Source: Pseudomonadota bacterium
Lineage (GTDB): Bacteria; Pseudomonadota; Gammaproteobacteria; Burkholderiales; Burkholderiaceae_C
Length of the DNA: 41,864 nucleotides
Direction: 5' to 3'
Assembly (NCBI GenBank): GCA_021845505.1
Contig: JAJZVU010000031.1
Coordinates: 1-41,864 of the forward strand
Shown: one piece after another, positions 1,476-9,685 of the stretch
Position numbering within the stretch: position 1 is the stretch's first letter
How the letters are laid out: every line of letters starts with the position of its first letter
Notes under the pieces: model-generated
Database searches by the model: none
The model's input: the letters and a program-made list of their open reading frames with translations, nothing else
Told to the model about the DNA's origin: nothing
Program-made: the position numbers and the translations under genes

Positions 1476-1654
1476 GATGGCCTCCATTCGTAGCTGTCGG
1501 ACGATGCTAGGGCGGGGCGCAGGCAGGCGGAAGCCGGCAATGCGTCGAGGTCGGCGGCAATTGCGTCGTTTCGACGGCAGCGCTCGACGGATTGCATGAT
1601 CGCCCAGGCGATATCGTGGGATCGCAGCGCCCGCGCCGCCGGGTGTTCGCGCGA

Positions 1655-1683
1655 TTGTCAGCGCCTGGGGCGGGGCTTAGACT
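1655..1683 (+). promoter_or_regulatory. Predicted sigma70 promoter of the solute-binding protein gene
   Basis: TTGTCA (1655-1660), a 17-bp spacer and TAGACT (1678-1683) match the sigma70 consensus at 5/6 and 4/6 positions. Transcription would begin near 1690, giving a leader of about 50 bases before the ATG at 1742. The promoter lies in the 266-bp region between divergent genes. No equally good promoter was found for the minus-strand gene. Confidence 0.5.
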
Positions 1684-1741
1684 GCCGGCGGGGGTGTTTT
1701 CGCTCGCCGCCAGACCATTGCCCGAAAACCGAGGAGTTCCC

Positions 1742-2572
1742 ATGAATAAACGCGATTTCTGCAAGACGCTGTTCGCGCTCGCCGGTGCCACCACGACCCG
1801 GCTGAGTTTCGCCGAGGACACCGACGCGGTGCTGCACGAGGTCCTGCACACCGGGGTGCTGCGCACCGGCGCGGTGGCCGCCGCGATTCCCTATTTCGAG
1901 AAGAACCAGAAGACCGGCGAGTGGGAAGGCTTCTGCCCCGATTTCGCGCGGAGTTTCGCCAAGAGCCTGGGAGTGAAGGTCGAGTTCGTCGAGACGACCT
2001 GGGGCAATGCGGTGCTCGACCTGCAGTCGCGCAAGATCGACGTGATGTTCGGGGCGGGCCCGACTCCGGCGCGCCGCAAGGTGCTGGACTTTTCCAATCC
2101 CTTGTTCCACAACACCTTCACCGCGGTCTGCAGGAAGGGAGTCGCGGTGAAGACCTGGGCGGAGTTGAACCAGCCCCACATGCGCATCGCGGTGGATCTG
2201 GGGTCGAACCAGGATGCCTTCGCGACGGCGACCCTGCCCAAGGCGCAGATCATGCGCTTCGCCCAGTCCAGCGAAGCCACGCTGGCGGTGCAGACCGGCC
2301 GCGCCGATTGCCAGGTGCTGGTGGTGCTGCTGGCGGCACCGCTGCTCAAGCTGCAGCCCCAGGTCGGGACCATGTACATCCCCGATCCGGTCAGTACCTC
2401 GGACGTGACGGCAGCCGTCGACAAGACCGTCGGCGATACCCTGCTGCAGCACATGAACGCCTGGATCGCCGGTGCCCGGGCGAAGGGGGAGATCCAGGCC
2501 GACATCCTGAAGAACATGCAGAACCTGGTCGGCATCCCTCCGGCCCGCTTCCCGTCCCAGGTGAAGTTCTGA
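1742..2572 (+). CDS. Amino-acid-type ABC transporter solute-binding protein (SBP_bac_3 family)
   Basis: 276 aa. The start is set by GAGGAG six bases before the ATG. The first 24 residues form an export signal (KRDFCK, hydrophobic stretch, likely cleavage after SFA). The K-R-x-F-x-K pattern is Tat-like with Lys in place of the first Arg. The mature part has family-3 features: WEGFCPDFARSFAKSLGVKV near the start, then VEFVETTWGNAVLDLQSRKIDV and a C-terminal helix. It should bind a polar amino acid or a related small molecule in the periplasm. No permease or ATPase gene is present in the window, so it is either an orphan or works with a transporter elsewhere. Divergence from the saccharopine-dehydrogenase-like gene suggests a shared substrate; this is inference. 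Confidence 0.82.
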   Translation: MNKRDFCKTLFALAGATTTRLSFAEDTDAVLHEVLHTGVLRTGAVAAAIPYFEKNQKTGEWEGFCPDFARSFAKSLGVKVEFVETTWGNAVLDLQSRKIDVMFGAGPTPARRKVLDFSNPLFHNTFTAVCRKGVAVKTWAELNQPHMRIAVDLGSNQDAFATATLPKAQIMRFAQSSEATLAVQTGRADCQVLVVLLAAPLLKLQPQVGTMYIPDPVSTSDVTAAVDKTVGDTLLQHMNAWIAGARAKGEIQADILKNMQNLVGIPPARFPSQVKF

Positions 2573-2606: not shown

Positions 2607-2809
2607 GAGGCGGCGCTGGCCGGACCGCCTGCGCGCGCCCGCGCGGCGACCCGGCGCTCGGCCGGCGAGCCTGGCCGCGCGTGTGGCCGGGCGACGACGC
2701 GCCCGATCAGCTGTGACAAATAGTTTGGCTTCCGCCGTGAAATACCTCACGTAGCACGGCAAGCGCCAGCCCATTCGAGCACTAAGCTTGGAATCGAGCC
2801 GGGCGGCAG

Positions 2810-5800
2810 ATGCCGCGGCGCCGGGCGGCCCGCGCCATGCCGGCCGCCGCGCGTCCCACGCCGCGGCAGGGCATCGCGCCGCCACTTTCGGCGCAGGGCC
2901 GCCAGCTGACGGGCATGACCAGATACCTCGATTCCTTGCAGCGCTGGGTCGCTTCGCGCACCGGAGCGCGCTACACCCTGTTCGTTGCGCTGGTGCTGCT
3001 GGCCGTGCTGGCCGCCTGGGGCGCGATCACCGGGCGCTCCGAGCTGCCGATGGCATCGGCGATGGCCCTGCTGCTGGCGCTGGTCGCCGCGTCGGCGTGG
3101 CGCATGACCTCGCTGCTGCGCCAGCTGGCGCGACGCAACGACGAGGTGGTCCTCGCGTCGAAGATGCTGGCGCGCATCGGTGAACTCCAGGCCTTCCTGG
3201 CCCAGGTCAACCAGGCCGCCGCGCAGCTCGAGGACGAAGGGCTGTTCCTGCAGGCCGTGTGCGATCTGGCGGTCGACGAAGGCAAGCTGGCGCTGGCGCT
3301 GGTCGCCCGGCCCGACGCCCAGGGCCGGTTTCAGGTCGAGGTGGCCACCGGGCGCACCAGCTATTCGGACGGGCTGTCGATGTCCATCGACCCCGACCGG
3401 CCCGACGGCCAGGGGCCGGCCGGATGCGCCTGGCGCGAGAGCCGCTCGCATTTCAACTCCGACTTCCGCGCCGACTGGCTGGCGCCGTGGCGCCAGCGCG
3501 CGCACGCGCTGGGCCTGAAGGCCAGCGCCACGCTGCTGGTGCGGCGCGGCGGCCAGCGCTGGGGGTTGTTGATCCTGTACCGCGGCGACGACGTGGCTTT
3601 CGACCCGCCGATGCAGCGGGTGCTGCGCGAACTCGCCGACGACGTGGGCCACGGCCTGGATCGAATCGCGCGCAGCCAGCGGCTGCACCTGCTCGACACC
3701 GCGGTGGCGGCGCTGTCCGACGGCTTGTCGATCCTCGACGCCCGGCGCGATGTCATCCAGGTCAATCGCGCCTTCAGCTCGATCACCGGCTACCTGCCCG
3801 AGGAGGTGATGGGGCGCAGCCTGGCGCTGCTGCACGCGCCCGATGCCGACCCGGCCAGCCTGGGCGCGCTGCGCGAAGCGGTGGCCGCGGGACGGAGCTA
3901 CGACGGCCAGATCCGCAACCTGCGCAAGGACGGAACACCCTTCTGGAACCAGTTGCACGTCGACCCGGTGCTCGACGCGCAGGGATGCCCGAGCCACTTC
4001 GTCGCGGTGCTGCGCGACGTCACGCGGGAGCGCGAAGCGCTGGACCTGCAGCACGCACTGCTGGAAAACACCACCTCGGGAATCCTCGTCGCGCGCGAGC
4101 GGACCATCGTCGCCTCCAATACCGCGATGGGTCGCCTGCTGGGGCGCGACCCCGGCGACTTCCTGGGGCGCAGCGCGCGCATGCTCTACCCGGACGACGC
4201 CGAGTTCGCGCGCGGCGTGCCGGCCTACGCCGAGCTGCAGGCCACCGGGTCGACCAGCCATGCCAACGTGCGCCTGCTGCACGCCGACGGCAGGACCGTG
4301 CTGTTCGACGTGCGCGGCCGCCTGCTGCCCGATGGCCAGACCGCGGTGTGGACCTTTTCCGACGTGACCGAGCGCGAGGCGCAGGCGCAGCGGCTGCAGC
4401 GTGCGCAGGCGGTCTATCGGGCGCTGGCCGCGGCCGGCAATTCCCTGCTGCAAAGCGCCACCGAGGCCGCGATGATCAGCCGCTTGTGTCAGAGCCTGGT
4501 CGAGGGCACCGAGTTCTCGTCGGTCTGGCTGGGCTGCCTGGACGCCGAAGGCGCGCTGCACGCCCTCGGCCGGGCCAGCGAGCAACCCCAGGAGCTGGTG
4601 TTTCGCGACGGCCGCGGCGTCGACCCCGGGGACCCCGACGCGGCGGTGGCCCGGGCCTGGCGCGCACAGGCCACGCTGGTGCACCAGGCCGGCGACGCGC
4701 CGGGTCGGCAGGGCGCGGCGGCACCGATGCTGCGCCCCGGCCAGTGGGTCGCGTTGCTCGACACCCCGGTGCGGCGCAACGGCCGCATCTGGGGGGTGCT
4801 GGAATTCGTCGCCGGGCGCGAGGGGCTGTTCGACCAGACGACCCGCGATGCCTGCGAGCAGGTGGCTGCGCTGCTCGGCCACGGCCTGGACGAACTCGAC
4901 CGCAAGCGCACCTTGCAGCACCTGCAGGCCAGCGAGAGCCGGCGCGCCCGCACCGACGCGTTGACCGGCCTGCCCAACCGCCTGGCGCTGGAGGAGCACC
5001 TGCCGAGGGCGCTGGCGCATGCCCAGAGGCGCCAGAGCGCGCTGGCCATCGGCATGCTCGACCTGGACGACTTCAAGCGGGTCAACGACCGCTTCGGCCA
5101 CTCCGCCGGCGACCTGCTGCTGCAGCGACTCGCGCAGGCGCTGCGCGAGCGCGTGCGGCAGGCGGATTTCCTGGTGCGCCTGGGTGGCGACGAGTTCGTC
5201 GTGCTGTTCGAGAACCTGCGTCCGGACAGCGCGCTGGCCGAGCTGCACGCCGCGTTGGAGCGCCTGCATGGTGCGGTGCAGCATGGATTCGACCTGGGCG
5301 AGGGCCGCCATGTCGACGTGGGCATGACCATGGGGCTGGCGCTGTACCCCCAGGACGCCGACGAGCCGGACACCTTGTTGCGGCTGGCCGATGCGGCGAT
5401 GTATTCGTGCAAGTCGCAGAAGTTCGATCGCCAGGCGTGGTGGCGCATCGGCCCGGCGCTCGAAGAGGCCCGCGACCGACGCACCGAGCACACGCTGGAC
5501 GCCTTCGACGAGCGCGCGCAGGCCTTGCTGCGCGCGCTGGATGCGCCATCGCTGGAGCGGGTGGCGACGGCGTTCGCCTCGTCGTTCTACGAGGAACTGG
5601 CGCAGCACCCGGAGCATGCGCAGATCCTGGGCTGCCTGGAAGGCGACGAGATGCAGGCCTTGCGGTCGGCGCAGGCGGCCCATCTGCGCTTCCTGCTGCA
5701 CCCGCAGACGACGGCCCAGGCGCTGCAGGACAGGGCGCGCGGGCTCGGCCAGGTGCACGCGCTGGTCGGGTTGTCGGGGGCGAGCATCGAGAGGACCTTC

Positions 5801-7510
5801 GCGCTGTACGAGGACCTGCTGCGCGGGCAACTCGAGCAGTCGCTGCTGTCGGCGCGGCAGCGCTACCTGATCCTGCGCGTGGCCACGGCCAGGCTGCGGC
5901 TGGACGTGCAGACCCAGCTGAGCGCCATCGATCGCACGATGGACGCCTACGCCGCGATCCTGCGCGCGCCGATCAACCCCCGGGCGCGCTGGGTGGACGA
6001 GCTGCCCGCCGCGCTGCAGGCGCTGTGCGGCCTGCCGGGCATCTGCCTGGCGGTGGTGTTCCGCCCCGACGAGCATGGAGTGCTGCGAGTCGAGGCGGGG
6101 GCCGGAGCCGGCCTCGCCGAGGTGCTGGACACCCTGCAGGCCGGCCACCTGCACCCCAACCTCAACCCCGACCCCGACCCCGACGCCCAGCGCGGGCCGT
6201 TGTCGCTGGCCTGGTTCGTGCGCGAGGTCCAGGTGGTGGACGCCTACCTGCGCGACCCGCGCCTGCAGCGCTGGCGTGCGATGGCGCTGCGCCACGGCTG
6301 GCGCAGCGCGGCGACGCTGCCGATCGCCGATGGCGACGACACCGACAGCGTCGTGATGCTGTTCGGCCGCCATGTGCACCAGTTCTCGTCGACCTGGGCG
6401 CGCTCCTGGCTGGAGTTGCTGCGCAGCCGTTTCGACTCGCTGTTCGCTGCCACCGCTCGCGGGCACCGCCCGATGGAGCCGGCGCAGGTGCGCTGCCTGC
6501 GCGAATGGCTGTACGGCCAGGGATTGAGCATGTGGGTGCAACCGATCGCCGACCTGCGCAGCGGCGAGCTCGGCAAGGTCGAAGCGCTGGCGCGACTGCA
6601 GGCCCCCGACGGCAGGATCTACACCCCGGGGGAATTCCTGCCCGCCTTCGGCGAGCAGGAGTTGCACGCGCTGTTCCGCCAGGGGCTGCGCCAGGCGCTC
6701 GGTCTGCTGCGGGACTGGCGCCAGGCCGGCATGGATCTGGACATCGCGATCAACGTGTCGCCGGTCACGCTGGCCCATCCGGATTGCACGGACTGGATCC
6801 AGCAGGCGCTGCGCGTTGCCGAGGTGGCTCCGCGCCACTTGACCCTGGAGGTGCTGGAAAGCGAGGAAATGGAAGTCGAGCGCGGCGGCGAGGCGATGCA
6901 CGGCGTGGACGCGCTGGGCGTGCGGCTGGCGCTCGACGACCTGGGCTCGGGCTACAGCAGCCTGACCCGGCTGGCCTCGCTGCCCATCGATACCGTGAAA
7001 ATCGACCAGGGGCTGATCCGGCAATTGCCGCGCCAGCCGGTGAAGACCATCCGTCTGCTTGCGACGCTGATCGGAATCGGCCACGAGTTCGCCCGCAGCA
7101 CGGTGGTCGAGGGGTTGGAGGACGAGGGGCTGATCGAGGTCGCGCGGCTGCTCGGTGCGCATCTGGGGCAGGGATTCGGCCTGGCGCGCCCGATGCCCGC
7201 CGCGGACTTCCCGGGCTGGGTCGCGGGTCGGCGCATCCTGCCCGTCGCCGGCGGCGAGATCCGGACCTGGGCCGGGGCGCTGGCCTGCCACTGGGCCGGC
7301 ATGCGCGAGCCCGGGCCGCTGGCGCAGGACTCGGAGCTGGAGCGCTTCCTGCAGGCGCACTCGGCAAGCGACGGCCAGGCGCTGGCGCTGCACCGGCGTT
7401 GCACCCAGGTCGATCAGCCGCGGCAGCGCCTGCATGCGCGCAACCTGCTGCTGCAGTGGCTCGAGCGGCGCGTGAGCCGGCATTACGCGCGACCGGCCCC
7501 GCTCGCCTGA
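2810..7510 (+). CDS. Membrane-bound GAF-PAS-PAS-GAF-GGDEF-globin-GAF-EAL c-di-GMP protein
   Basis: 1566 aa from the ATG at 2810; an ATG at 2915 (M36) is equally possible because residues 1-35 look like translated leader. Order: two membrane helices (about 55-73, 82-99), GAF-like (121-297), PAS (294-411), PAS (417-529), GAF-like (542-697), GGDEF (712-874), globin-sensor-like (904-1050), GAF-like (1059-1224), EAL (1224-1471), tail of unknown fold. The cyclase signature GGDEF (792-796) and the inhibitory RQAD site (783-786) are intact. The phosphodiesterase keeps E1258-A-L, the Asn of NVSP, DDLGSGYSS and VKID, so both activities look possible. The globin-like part aligns by eye with E. coli DosC: FY (Y927, distal Tyr) and VH (H983, proximal His) are kept, implying haem and oxygen sensing. 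Such a domain is usually N-terminal. The gene appears monocistronic. Confidence 0.9.
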   Translation: MPRRRAARAMPAAARPTPRQGIAPPLSAQGRQLTGMTRYLDSLQRWVASRTGARYTLFVALVLLAVLAAWGAITGRSELPMASAMALLLALVAASAWRMTSLLRQLARRNDEVVLASKMLARIGELQAFLAQVNQAAAQLEDEGLFLQAVCDLAVDEGKLALALVARPDAQGRFQVEVATGRTSYSDGLSMSIDPDRPDGQGPAGCAWRESRSHFNSDFRADWLAPWRQRAHALGLKASATLLVRRGGQRWGLLILYRGDDVAFDPPMQRVLRELADDVGHGLDRIARSQRLHLLDTAVAALSDGLSILDARRDVIQVNRAFSSITGYLPEEVMGRSLALLHAPDADPASLGALREAVAAGRSYDGQIRNLRKDGTPFWNQLHVDPVLDAQGCPSHFVAVLRDVTREREALDLQHALLENTTSGILVARERTIVASNTAMGRLLGRDPGDFLGRSARMLYPDDAEFARGVPAYAELQATGSTSHANVRLLHADGRTVLFDVRGRLLPDGQTAVWTFSDVTEREAQAQRLQRAQAVYRALAAAGNSLLQSATEAAMISRLCQSLVEGTEFSSVWLGCLDAEGALHALGRASEQPQELVFRDGRGVDPGDPDAAVARAWRAQATLVHQAGDAPGRQGAAAPMLRPGQWVALLDTPVRRNGRIWGVLEFVAGREGLFDQTTRDACEQVAALLGHGLDELDRKRTLQHLQASESRRARTDALTGLPNRLALEEHLPRALAHAQRRQSALAIGMLDLDDFKRVNDRFGHSAGDLLLQRLAQALRERVRQADFLVRLGGDEFVVLFENLRPDSALAELHAALERLHGAVQHGFDLGEGRHVDVGMTMGLALYPQDADEPDTLLRLADAAMYSCKSQKFDRQAWWRIGPALEEARDRRTEHTLDAFDERAQALLRALDAPSLERVATAFASSFYEELAQHPEHAQILGCLEGDEMQALRSAQAAHLRFLLHPQTTAQALQDRARGLGQVHALVGLSGASIERTFALYEDLLRGQLEQSLLSARQRYLILRVATARLRLDVQTQLSAIDRTMDAYAAILRAPINPRARWVDELPAALQALCGLPGICLAVVFRPDEHGVLRVEAGAGAGLAEVLDTLQAGHLHPNLNPDPDPDAQRGPLSLAWFVREVQVVDAYLRDPRLQRWRAMALRHGWRSAATLPIADGDDTDSVVMLFGRHVHQFSSTWARSWLELLRSRFDSLFAATARGHRPMEPAQVRCLREWLYGQGLSMWVQPIADLRSGELGKVEALARLQAPDGRIYTPGEFLPAFGEQELHALFRQGLRQALGLLRDWRQAGMDLDIAINVSPVTLAHPDCTDWIQQALRVAEVAPRHLTLEVLESEEMEVERGGEAMHGVDALGVRLALDDLGSGYSSLTRLASLPIDTVKIDQGLIRQLPRQPVKTIRLLATLIGIGHEFARSTVVEGLEDEGLIEVARLLGAHLGQGFGLARPMPAADFPGWVAGRRILPVAGGEIRTWAGALACHWAGMREPGPLAQDSELERFLQAHSASDGQALALHRRCTQVDQPRQRLHARNLLLQWLERRVSRHYARPAPLA

Positions 7511-8860: not shown

Positions 8861-9685
8861 TCAGGCGGCCAGCCGACTGGGGCTGATCAGGTCCTGCAGC
8901 GCCTGCCGGTTGACCCGGAACAAGCGCGGTCCCACGTGTTCGAGCAGCCCGCGGCGTTCGAAGTCGGCGATGGTCCGGCTGGCCGTCTCCAGCGCGACAC
9001 CGAGCATCGCGCCCAGGTCGCTGCGCTTGGGCAGCACGATGGTGTCGTTGAGTTCGGGTTCGGCCAGCCGCAGAAGCAACCGGGCCATGCGCGAGGCCAT
9101 CGCGCCGGAGCCCAGCAGCAGCGCCCACTCGTCGGTTTCGCGCAGCGCGCGGTGCCAGCGCTCGAGGAATTCCAGCCGCAGGTTGGGCACCCGCTCTTCC
9201 AGCGAGCGGATCAACTCCACCGGGATGCGGCACAACCGCACGGTTCCGATGGCCGACGCATGGTGCATGTAGGGCTGTGCGATGAAGGCCTCCAGGCCGA
9301 TGAGGTCGCCGCGCCGGGCCACCCGGGTGATGCGGCGCGTGCCATCGGGAAGCAGGCGCTCGAGTTTGACAAAGCCCGTCTTGACCGTATAGAGGTACTG
9401 GCCCTGCTCGCCTTCGCGGAACACGTTCTGGCCCGACGCGTACTGCATGTCGTCGATGACCTGGTGGATCTTCTCGAAGTCGTCGATCGCCAGCGCTCCG
9501 AACAGCGCGATGCGCCGAACGCCGCAATTGCGGCAGTCGGCCGCGCCGCGCCAGGCGCCCAGCAGCTCGCGGCGGCCGATCGGCGCGACTGCGCAAGCCG
9601 TGGGTTGCGCCGGGGTACAGGCGGACGGATGGGCCGGCTGGGGCGGCCTGCGATCGAGTCGAGGCAAGTCTACGGCCTGGGTCAT
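8861..9685 (-). CDS. FNR/CRP-family transcription regulator with an atypical cysteine set
   Basis: 274 aa: an N-terminal Pro/Ala-rich segment (1-45), a cyclic-nucleotide-binding-like beta roll (about 58-170) and a winged helix-turn-helix (about 195-265). The recognition helix reads ETASR, keeping the E..SR triad that in FNR contacts TTGAT half sites. Classic FNR binds [4Fe-4S] through three clustered N-terminal Cys and one central Cys. Here there are C51 and C54 (CRNC) plus scattered C23, C31 and C152, but the usual three-Cys cluster is absent. An oxygen-labile cluster is therefore uncertain; haem/NO or redox sensing are alternatives. It diverges from nadC across a promoter region with a 20-bp palindrome, a likely point of autoregulation or control by another factor. 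Confidence 0.85.

Follow-up and report, generated by a model that had tools for sequence, protein, structure and literature searches.

A sensor-type globin predicted between the GGDEF and EAL domains of a bacterial protein, and its recurrent family

DcpG is a globin-coupled sensor (GCS) whose globin is N-terminal. It comes from Paenibacillus dendritiformis and, like the protein described here from the window (the whole stretch of DNA that was analysed, 41,864 nucleotides), combines GGDEF and EAL in one polypeptide; O2 and NO are reported to drive opposite activities in DcpG, and haem gas sensors in general are described there with the sensor at the N-terminal end and the output domain behind it, and the passage on DcpG mentions no GAF between its globin and EAL, unlike what we find in the window protein (PMC10882959). 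DosC/YddV (EcGReg) and BpeGReg are like the window protein in the predicted globin fold and in the link to c-di-GMP, but are described with an N-terminal globin, a middle domain and then GGDEF (PMC5549716), whereas the window globin comes after GGDEF and before a GAF-EAL pair. In DosC, His98 is the proximal haem ligand and Tyr43 steadies bound O2 (PMC5549716).

A similar domain set has been described in Acidithiobacillus, a bacterium of acid, metal-rich places, where 80 of 387 GGDEF-EAL proteins are stated to carry Protoglobin and AFE_1712 is written as Protoglobin-GGDEF-EAL-CZB (PMC6416229), and where the sensor domains are placed in the N-terminal regions (PMC4331095). Compared by published description only, that order has Protoglobin first, unlike the window protein (PMC6416229). 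A CZB-like zinc-binding tail also follows EAL in one paralogue from the window's own genome (L008:2777-7681, on C21; 21.7 bits, below the cut-off of 29.4). Among the open-access papers that our searches listed, we came across none that describes a globin placed between these two domains; the family may be in print elsewhere.

The open reading frame at 2810-7510 (+) encodes 1566 aa, and all residue numbers used here are counted from its start at 2810, not from Met36. Its GC content by codon position (0.765/0.489/0.924) is of the coding type; a minus-strand frame at 2747-7483 shows the mirror image of these values (0.92/0.49/0.762) and was set aside as a shadow frame. The start at 2810 that had been assumed in the earlier note is probably to be replaced by Met36 at 2915, because in L011, a relative with 90% identity over residues 2-864, an in-frame TAG lies four codons 5′ of the equivalent methionine. 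Just upstream and co-directional lies a gene for an SBP_bac_3 solute-binding protein (window 1592-2572, +), and a CRP-family regulator with cNMP_binding and Crp-like HTH domains is encoded at window 8861-9685 (-). The host genus is probably Thiomonas, a name carried by 4 of 26 related loci; several other loci of the genus have cores that agree in length and scores with those of the loci so named (L015 and L072, for example). The features of the locus are as follows:

2915..7510, + strand: likely coding sequence of 1531 aa and a stop codon, starting at Met36, placed by the upstream TAG of the relative L011
2972..3100, + strand: a probable pair of membrane helices at residues 55-73 and 79-97, where 19-residue Kyte-Doolittle windows reach 2.39 and 1.87
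3245..3658, + strand: GAF domain 1, residues 146-283, Pfam GAF_2
3719..4024, + strand: PAS domain 1, residues 304-405, Pfam PAS_9
4040..4384, + strand: PAS domain 2, about residues 411-525, a second stretch of Pfam PAS models with limits set by eye
4487..4879, + strand: GAF domain 2, residues 560-690, Pfam GAF
4949..5428, + strand: GGDEF domain, residues 714-873, Pfam E 1.3e-40, with GGDEF at 792-796 and the I-site RQAD
5423..5491, + strand: residues 872-894, linking GGDEF to the globin and corresponding to residues 173-195 of the AlphaFold2 core model, pLDDT <50
5504..5920, + strand: Protoglobin-family domain, residues 899-1037, from Pfam, AlphaFold2, Foldseek, the DosC alignment and column counts
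within 5504..5920, + strand: pocket residues Y927 (5588-5590), Q955 and H983 (5756-5758), from the DosC alignment
5984..6415, + strand: GAF domain 3, about residues 1059-1202, in the interval between globin and EAL, from the family profile with a weak Pfam GAF_2 match
6509..7192, + strand: EAL domain, residues 1234-1461, Pfam E 2.1e-46, catalytic residues intact by residue check
7247..7507, + strand: C-terminal tail, residues 1480-1566, no family match in the Pfam search, dN/dS 0.35 against L058

Both catalytic domains keep the residues that the earlier note had read as intact. The GGDEF motif stands at 792-796 with its RQAD inhibitory site ending 5 residues ahead of it, and the EAL residues checked (E, N, E, D, D, K, E, Q) are all present; at the level of sequence the protein has both sets of active-site residues expected of a bifunctional GGDEF-EAL enzyme. 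Where four GAF/PAS domains had been counted before, we count five, namely GAF-PAS-PAS-GAF ahead of GGDEF and a further GAF between globin and EAL. This last domain is detected by the family profile, and Pfam GAF_2 gives it E 0.00094 on the isolated piece, which is below the cut-off.

The globin between the catalytic domains, previously proposed from an alignment by eye, is confirmed by Pfam, AlphaFold2 and Foldseek. Pfam Protoglobin (PF11563) matches residues 899-1037 with 31.0 bits, above the curated cut-off of 25 (E 2.9e-7). When the 331-aa piece is searched on its own the score is 35.7 bits (E 1.1e-8), and in the whole-genome search the domain reaches 37.2 bits. With 26 aligned sequences, AlphaFold2 folds residues 879-1062 into a confident, all-helical globin model of eight helices (pLDDT 87.1, pTM 0.80), and the first Foldseek match of the model in the PDB is the DosC globin (4zvb_A, E 6.6e-5, TM 0.56/0.67). 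Ranks 1-22 of that search are occupied by the globins of DosC, BpeGReg, AfGcHK, HemAT and a Geobacter sensor and by one Thermosynechococcus globin, with E values up to 0.014; AfGcHK and HemAT we take to be globin-coupled sensors. Against the sequences of the PDB, the profile found 8h17 (E 0.00066) and 2w31 (E 0.082), the former a second sensor-type globin that shares the FY and GxVH motifs in the alignment, and a single-sequence phmmer search of the same sequences gave nothing significant, its best match being an anti-anti-sigma factor (E 0.15). A chance or false globin hit is ruled out by Pfam, the relatives' profile, AlphaFold2 and Foldseek taken together.

We conclude that the internal domain is a genuine globin of the globin-coupled-sensor type, which most likely binds haem through H983. 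By prediction it has the sensor-type globin fold, with a proximal His and a distal Tyr. The N-terminal globin with C-terminal output that characterises such sensors is not found in the protein as a whole but is present when the globin-GAF-EAL half is considered alone, and instead of the DosC-type order of globin, middle domain and GGDEF we see GGDEF, globin, GAF and EAL. The unusual internal position pointed out in the earlier note is thus supported, as GGDEF (714-873) precedes the globin (899-1037), and we regard the window protein as one that works like a GCS and is a variant by domain order.

When the family is aligned with E. coli DosC, F926 corresponds to Phe42, Y927 to Tyr43, L951 to Leu65, Q955 to Met69 and H983 to His98. 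The distal Phe-Tyr, the Leu and the proximal His of DosC thereby find counterparts in the window globin, including the distal Tyr and proximal His that had been singled out by eye, and the hhalign match to DosC is weak when taken alone (E 0.018, probability 2.6). Y927 would lie on the ligand side of the haem pocket and Q955 is probably there too. Such a distal Tyr-Gln pair would also fit a globin that senses NO or redox state and not oxygen: the column of Q955 is Gln in 55 of 73 collected cores, and the structural matches include a putative NO dioxygenase, RmaNOD, at rank 23 (E 0.019). The sensor globins outrank RmaNOD in Foldseek, however, and Tyr is the O2-steadying residue of DosC (PMC5549716); we consider sensing of NO or redox state in place of oxygen quite improbable.

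After duplicates were removed, our collection held 87 distinct globin-bearing open reading frames, 64 of them with both Tyr and His. In the full cores (n = 73, with near-duplicate relatives counted separately) His is kept in 67, Tyr in 58 and both in 57. GG[DE]EF is intact in 64 of the 73 and RxxD in 61; the nine without GG[DE]EF include L058 and L089, in which the motif was unread or read in part. The checked EAL residues are intact in 72, and the remaining core is cut by the end of the fetched stretch. The spacing of the domains is narrow, with medians of 19 residues from GGDEF to globin (6-28), 11 from globin to GAF (10-21) and 29 from GAF to EAL (28-35). Between the window protein and L058, the globin has a dN/dS of 0.18, above the values of GAF (0.08), EAL (0.045) and the GGDEF end with the linker (0.06), and the C-terminal tail reaches 0.35. 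This indicates that the globin is constrained, though less so than its neighbours, and that the tail is the least constrained of the five parts.

Since pocket residues are absent from some cores, the core can persist without the full pocket, and the globin fold could be retained above all for dimerisation, as a spacer or to bind a different ligand, with gas sensing lost or secondary. His is missing in 6 and Tyr in 15 of the 73 cores whose EAL residues are intact in all but the truncated one, the own-genome paralogue C18 lacks both pocket residues, and the globin is more variable than EAL (mean identity across cores 0.35 vs 0.50). What speaks against a mere structural role is that the window copy retains both Y927 and H983 and that the pocket columns are well conserved, with F in 62 of the 73 cores at F926, Y in 58 at Y927, L in 66 at L951, Q in 55 at Q955 and H in 67 at H983. 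We find it rather unlikely that the fold has been kept chiefly for such a role.

To which half of the protein the globin belongs can be approached from the trees and from the model of the core. In a quick, midpoint-rooted tree of 85 globin-GAF-EAL regions, most proteins that lack GGDEF are separated from those that carry it, with 3 label changes; the nested GGDEF-less exceptions, L044 (the C7 paralogue) and L142, look like later losses of GGDEF. On the same tree the pocket His changes 7 times and the Tyr 15 times, each figure maybe one too high because the row of L029 has the pocket label of the second open reading frame at its locus, which leaves the topology unaffected. The EAL tree has 75 rows, with 11 other EALs of the own genome as the intended outgroup and after exclusion of 23 of the 85 rows that were near relatives of kept rows or were cut by the end of a contig or fetched stretch. 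Here the 63 EALs that directly follow a globin (GAF) module form one clade (98/90), inside which the GGDEF-less L095/L135 is the first branch; the outgroup row L158 fell across the root and grouped with the globin-first L114 beside this clade. The rest of the EAL tree is mixed and the GGDEF-less label requires 5 changes on it, so that it does not establish one single fusion.

In the core model, the only inner stretch with pLDDT <50 is the linker between GGDEF and globin (872-894). The last globin helix (1015-1052) reaches the first GAF helix within eight residues at a pLDDT of about 78, and the stretch from GAF to EAL is of moderate confidence (pLDDT about 64); with a pTM of 0.56 for the core model, the arrangement of the domains is unsure. 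Correlations between distance matrices are 0.91 for GAF/EAL, 0.88 for globin/EAL and globin/GAF and 0.78-0.82 for pairs with GGDEF (globin/GGDEF 0.82; permutations ≤0.21), values that differ little between the domain pairs. Because GGDEF-less relatives exist and one pair of them branches first in the EAL tree, because the GGDEF linker has low pLDDT and because the distance correlations are lower with GGDEF, we favor the globin as the sensor of the EAL half. The trees lean towards a globin-GAF-EAL unit, a phosphodiesterase with an N-terminal globin, in front of which a GGDEF was placed. The short spacing between GGDEF and globin, and the fact that both domains stay together, would also fit a coupling to GGDEF.

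Coupling to both sides would amount to a true two-way switch, in which a single haem placed between the two active modules turns the protein from synthesis of c-di-GMP to its breakdown and back. The active sites are both intact in the window protein and likewise in most of the 73 cores, GGDEF remains joined to the globin by a short linker, and DcpG, a GCS with GGDEF and EAL, behaves in this way, with O2 promoting breakdown and NO promoting synthesis (PMC10882959). On the other hand, that linker is predicted with pLDDT <50, GGDEF has a four-domain input stack of its own, and globin-GAF-EAL exists without any GGDEF; we judge the two-way switch unlikely. Of the interpretation offered in the earlier note, the identity of the globin, its pocket residues and its internal position stand; the switch from making to breaking is possible, with the evidence leaning to a sensor of the EAL half.

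The option we favor, with a probability of about 0.5, is that the window protein integrates two inputs, joining a gas-gated globin-GAF-EAL phosphodiesterase, with haem on H983, to a separately driven GGDEF. As the trees lean to a globin-GAF-EAL unit with an added GGDEF, gas control of the EAL half via GAF is the most likely route. A gas ligand (oxygen, or NO/CO) would bind the globin haem through the H983 pocket, the signal would travel along the long last globin helix and through GAF to EAL, and oxygen (or NO/CO) would set the rate of c-di-GMP breakdown. The membrane-anchored GAF-PAS-PAS-GAF stack would chiefly drive GGDEF, as the order of the domains suggests, and other signals would thereby set the rate of synthesis. 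We infer the binding of haem and gas in the window protein, and the direction of control; the globin probably ties c-di-GMP breakdown to oxygen or another gas.

The window copy is one of several in its genome. The globin+GAF profile has 18 matches there, nine over the full profile (C12, the window copy; C25; two on C21; C46; C7; C19; C41; C18) and nine restricted to its GAF part. The genome totals 25 EAL and 33 GGDEF matches; 9 of the 25 EAL domains come after a globin-GAF pair, 7 of these with an upstream GGDEF, and the distance from GGDEF to EAL is 1044-1080 nt in the seven proteins with globin-GAF and 57-72 nt in nine proteins. His is kept in 8 of the 9 globins and Tyr in 5, both being present in C12, C25, C46, C7 and C19. 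Since C41 (L119) and C7 (L117) are globin-GAF-EAL proteins without GGDEF, the canonical and the internal-globin forms coexist in one genome. The open frame of the C7 paralogue has 450 residues ahead of the globin; this stretch was rejected by eye as a protein of its own, and the protein was judged to begin just before the globin. Pfam Protoglobin was not seen in C7, C19 and C18 of this genome and was below the cut-off in C21:21852, so that these four globins, which Pfam alone misses or underscores, rest on the family profile, itself weak for C18 (38 bits).

Some copies depart further from the window protein. C18 (L120:3526-5901) has a degenerate GGDEF (GADSV) and neither Tyr nor His, with intact EAL residues, and is possibly a natural gas-blind form. 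An N-terminal hemerythrin accompanies the internal globin in L007:3250-6969 (C25), L009:3221-7072 (C21) and L138:1-3513, and each of these proteins may combine two distinct metal centres that bind oxygen; L009 has Arg at the position of the distal Tyr.

Outside the genus, the genome counts are lower bounds because few candidates were scored per genome (the best 5, 6 and 7 in the phylum, class and order samples, respectively). The globin+GAF profile was found in at least 13 of 369 genomes of the class sample (E 1e-25) and at least 17 of 300 of the order sample (E 1e-15), the window's genome included in each, and in at least 1 of 398 of the phylum sample (E 1e-15), namely the window's own; among the candidates scored in the phylum sample, none of the 11 genomes from other genera of the same family had it (E 1e-15). 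Not every profile match is a core: in G875 only the GAF part is matched, G848 and G227 carry globin-GAF-EAL, G247 carries two such proteins, and G320 has the globin first. A search for the same domain order in other genomes had been proposed, and GGDEF-globin-GAF-EAL does recur in ten other genus codes (g166, g169, g174, g176, g220, g491, g492, g529, g532 and g560), counted from fetched loci by the family profiles, with only a partial GGDEF match in g220; in L116, one of the g166 proteins, GAF was not detected by these profiles. Pfam Protoglobin lies between GGDEF and EAL in 6 of 6 non-genus proteins of one set (two below the cut-off), and it was found in 7 of 8 of a second set (three below the cut-off), with none in L131; L102 and L105 likewise have it between GGDEF and EAL. 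At L029:4410-5441, 356 nt after a core gene, we observed a short globin-GGDEF protein with Ala/Tyr in the pocket and EGDRF replacing GGDEF.

In the plasmid collection three records matched, that of Caballeronia alone over most of the query, and a longer core query gave nothing there at E 1e-60. The Caballeronia protein LDZ27_RS23445 is a globin-GAF-EAL protein (Protoglobin 20.9 bits, below the cut-off of 25), and it shares this unit with the own-genome C41 and C7; unlike the window protein, the three have no GGDEF ahead of it. A globin inside a GGDEF/EAL protein is a repeated, conserved family and not a one-off.

The arrangement is less surprising than it looked in that the globin probably serves the EAL half as its usual N-terminal sensor, and more surprising in that it recurs as a conserved family. 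One could go further and propose that the core, present in several lineages and multiplied in Thiomonas, is a two-sided gas switch that supplies each cell with many differently wired oxygen-responsive copies, some with an added N-terminal hemerythrin; this is speculative and we hold it to be unlikely. An earlier Thiomonas genome paper describes an island with many GGDEF and EAL proteins (PMC2829063), and our findings suggest a prominent place in this genus for gas signals acting on c-di-GMP breakdown. With several copies per genome, the recurrent internal-globin family forms a test series for how one gas sensor is connected to a single enzyme or to two that oppose each other, and the series includes natural variants without Tyr, without His or without GGDEF.
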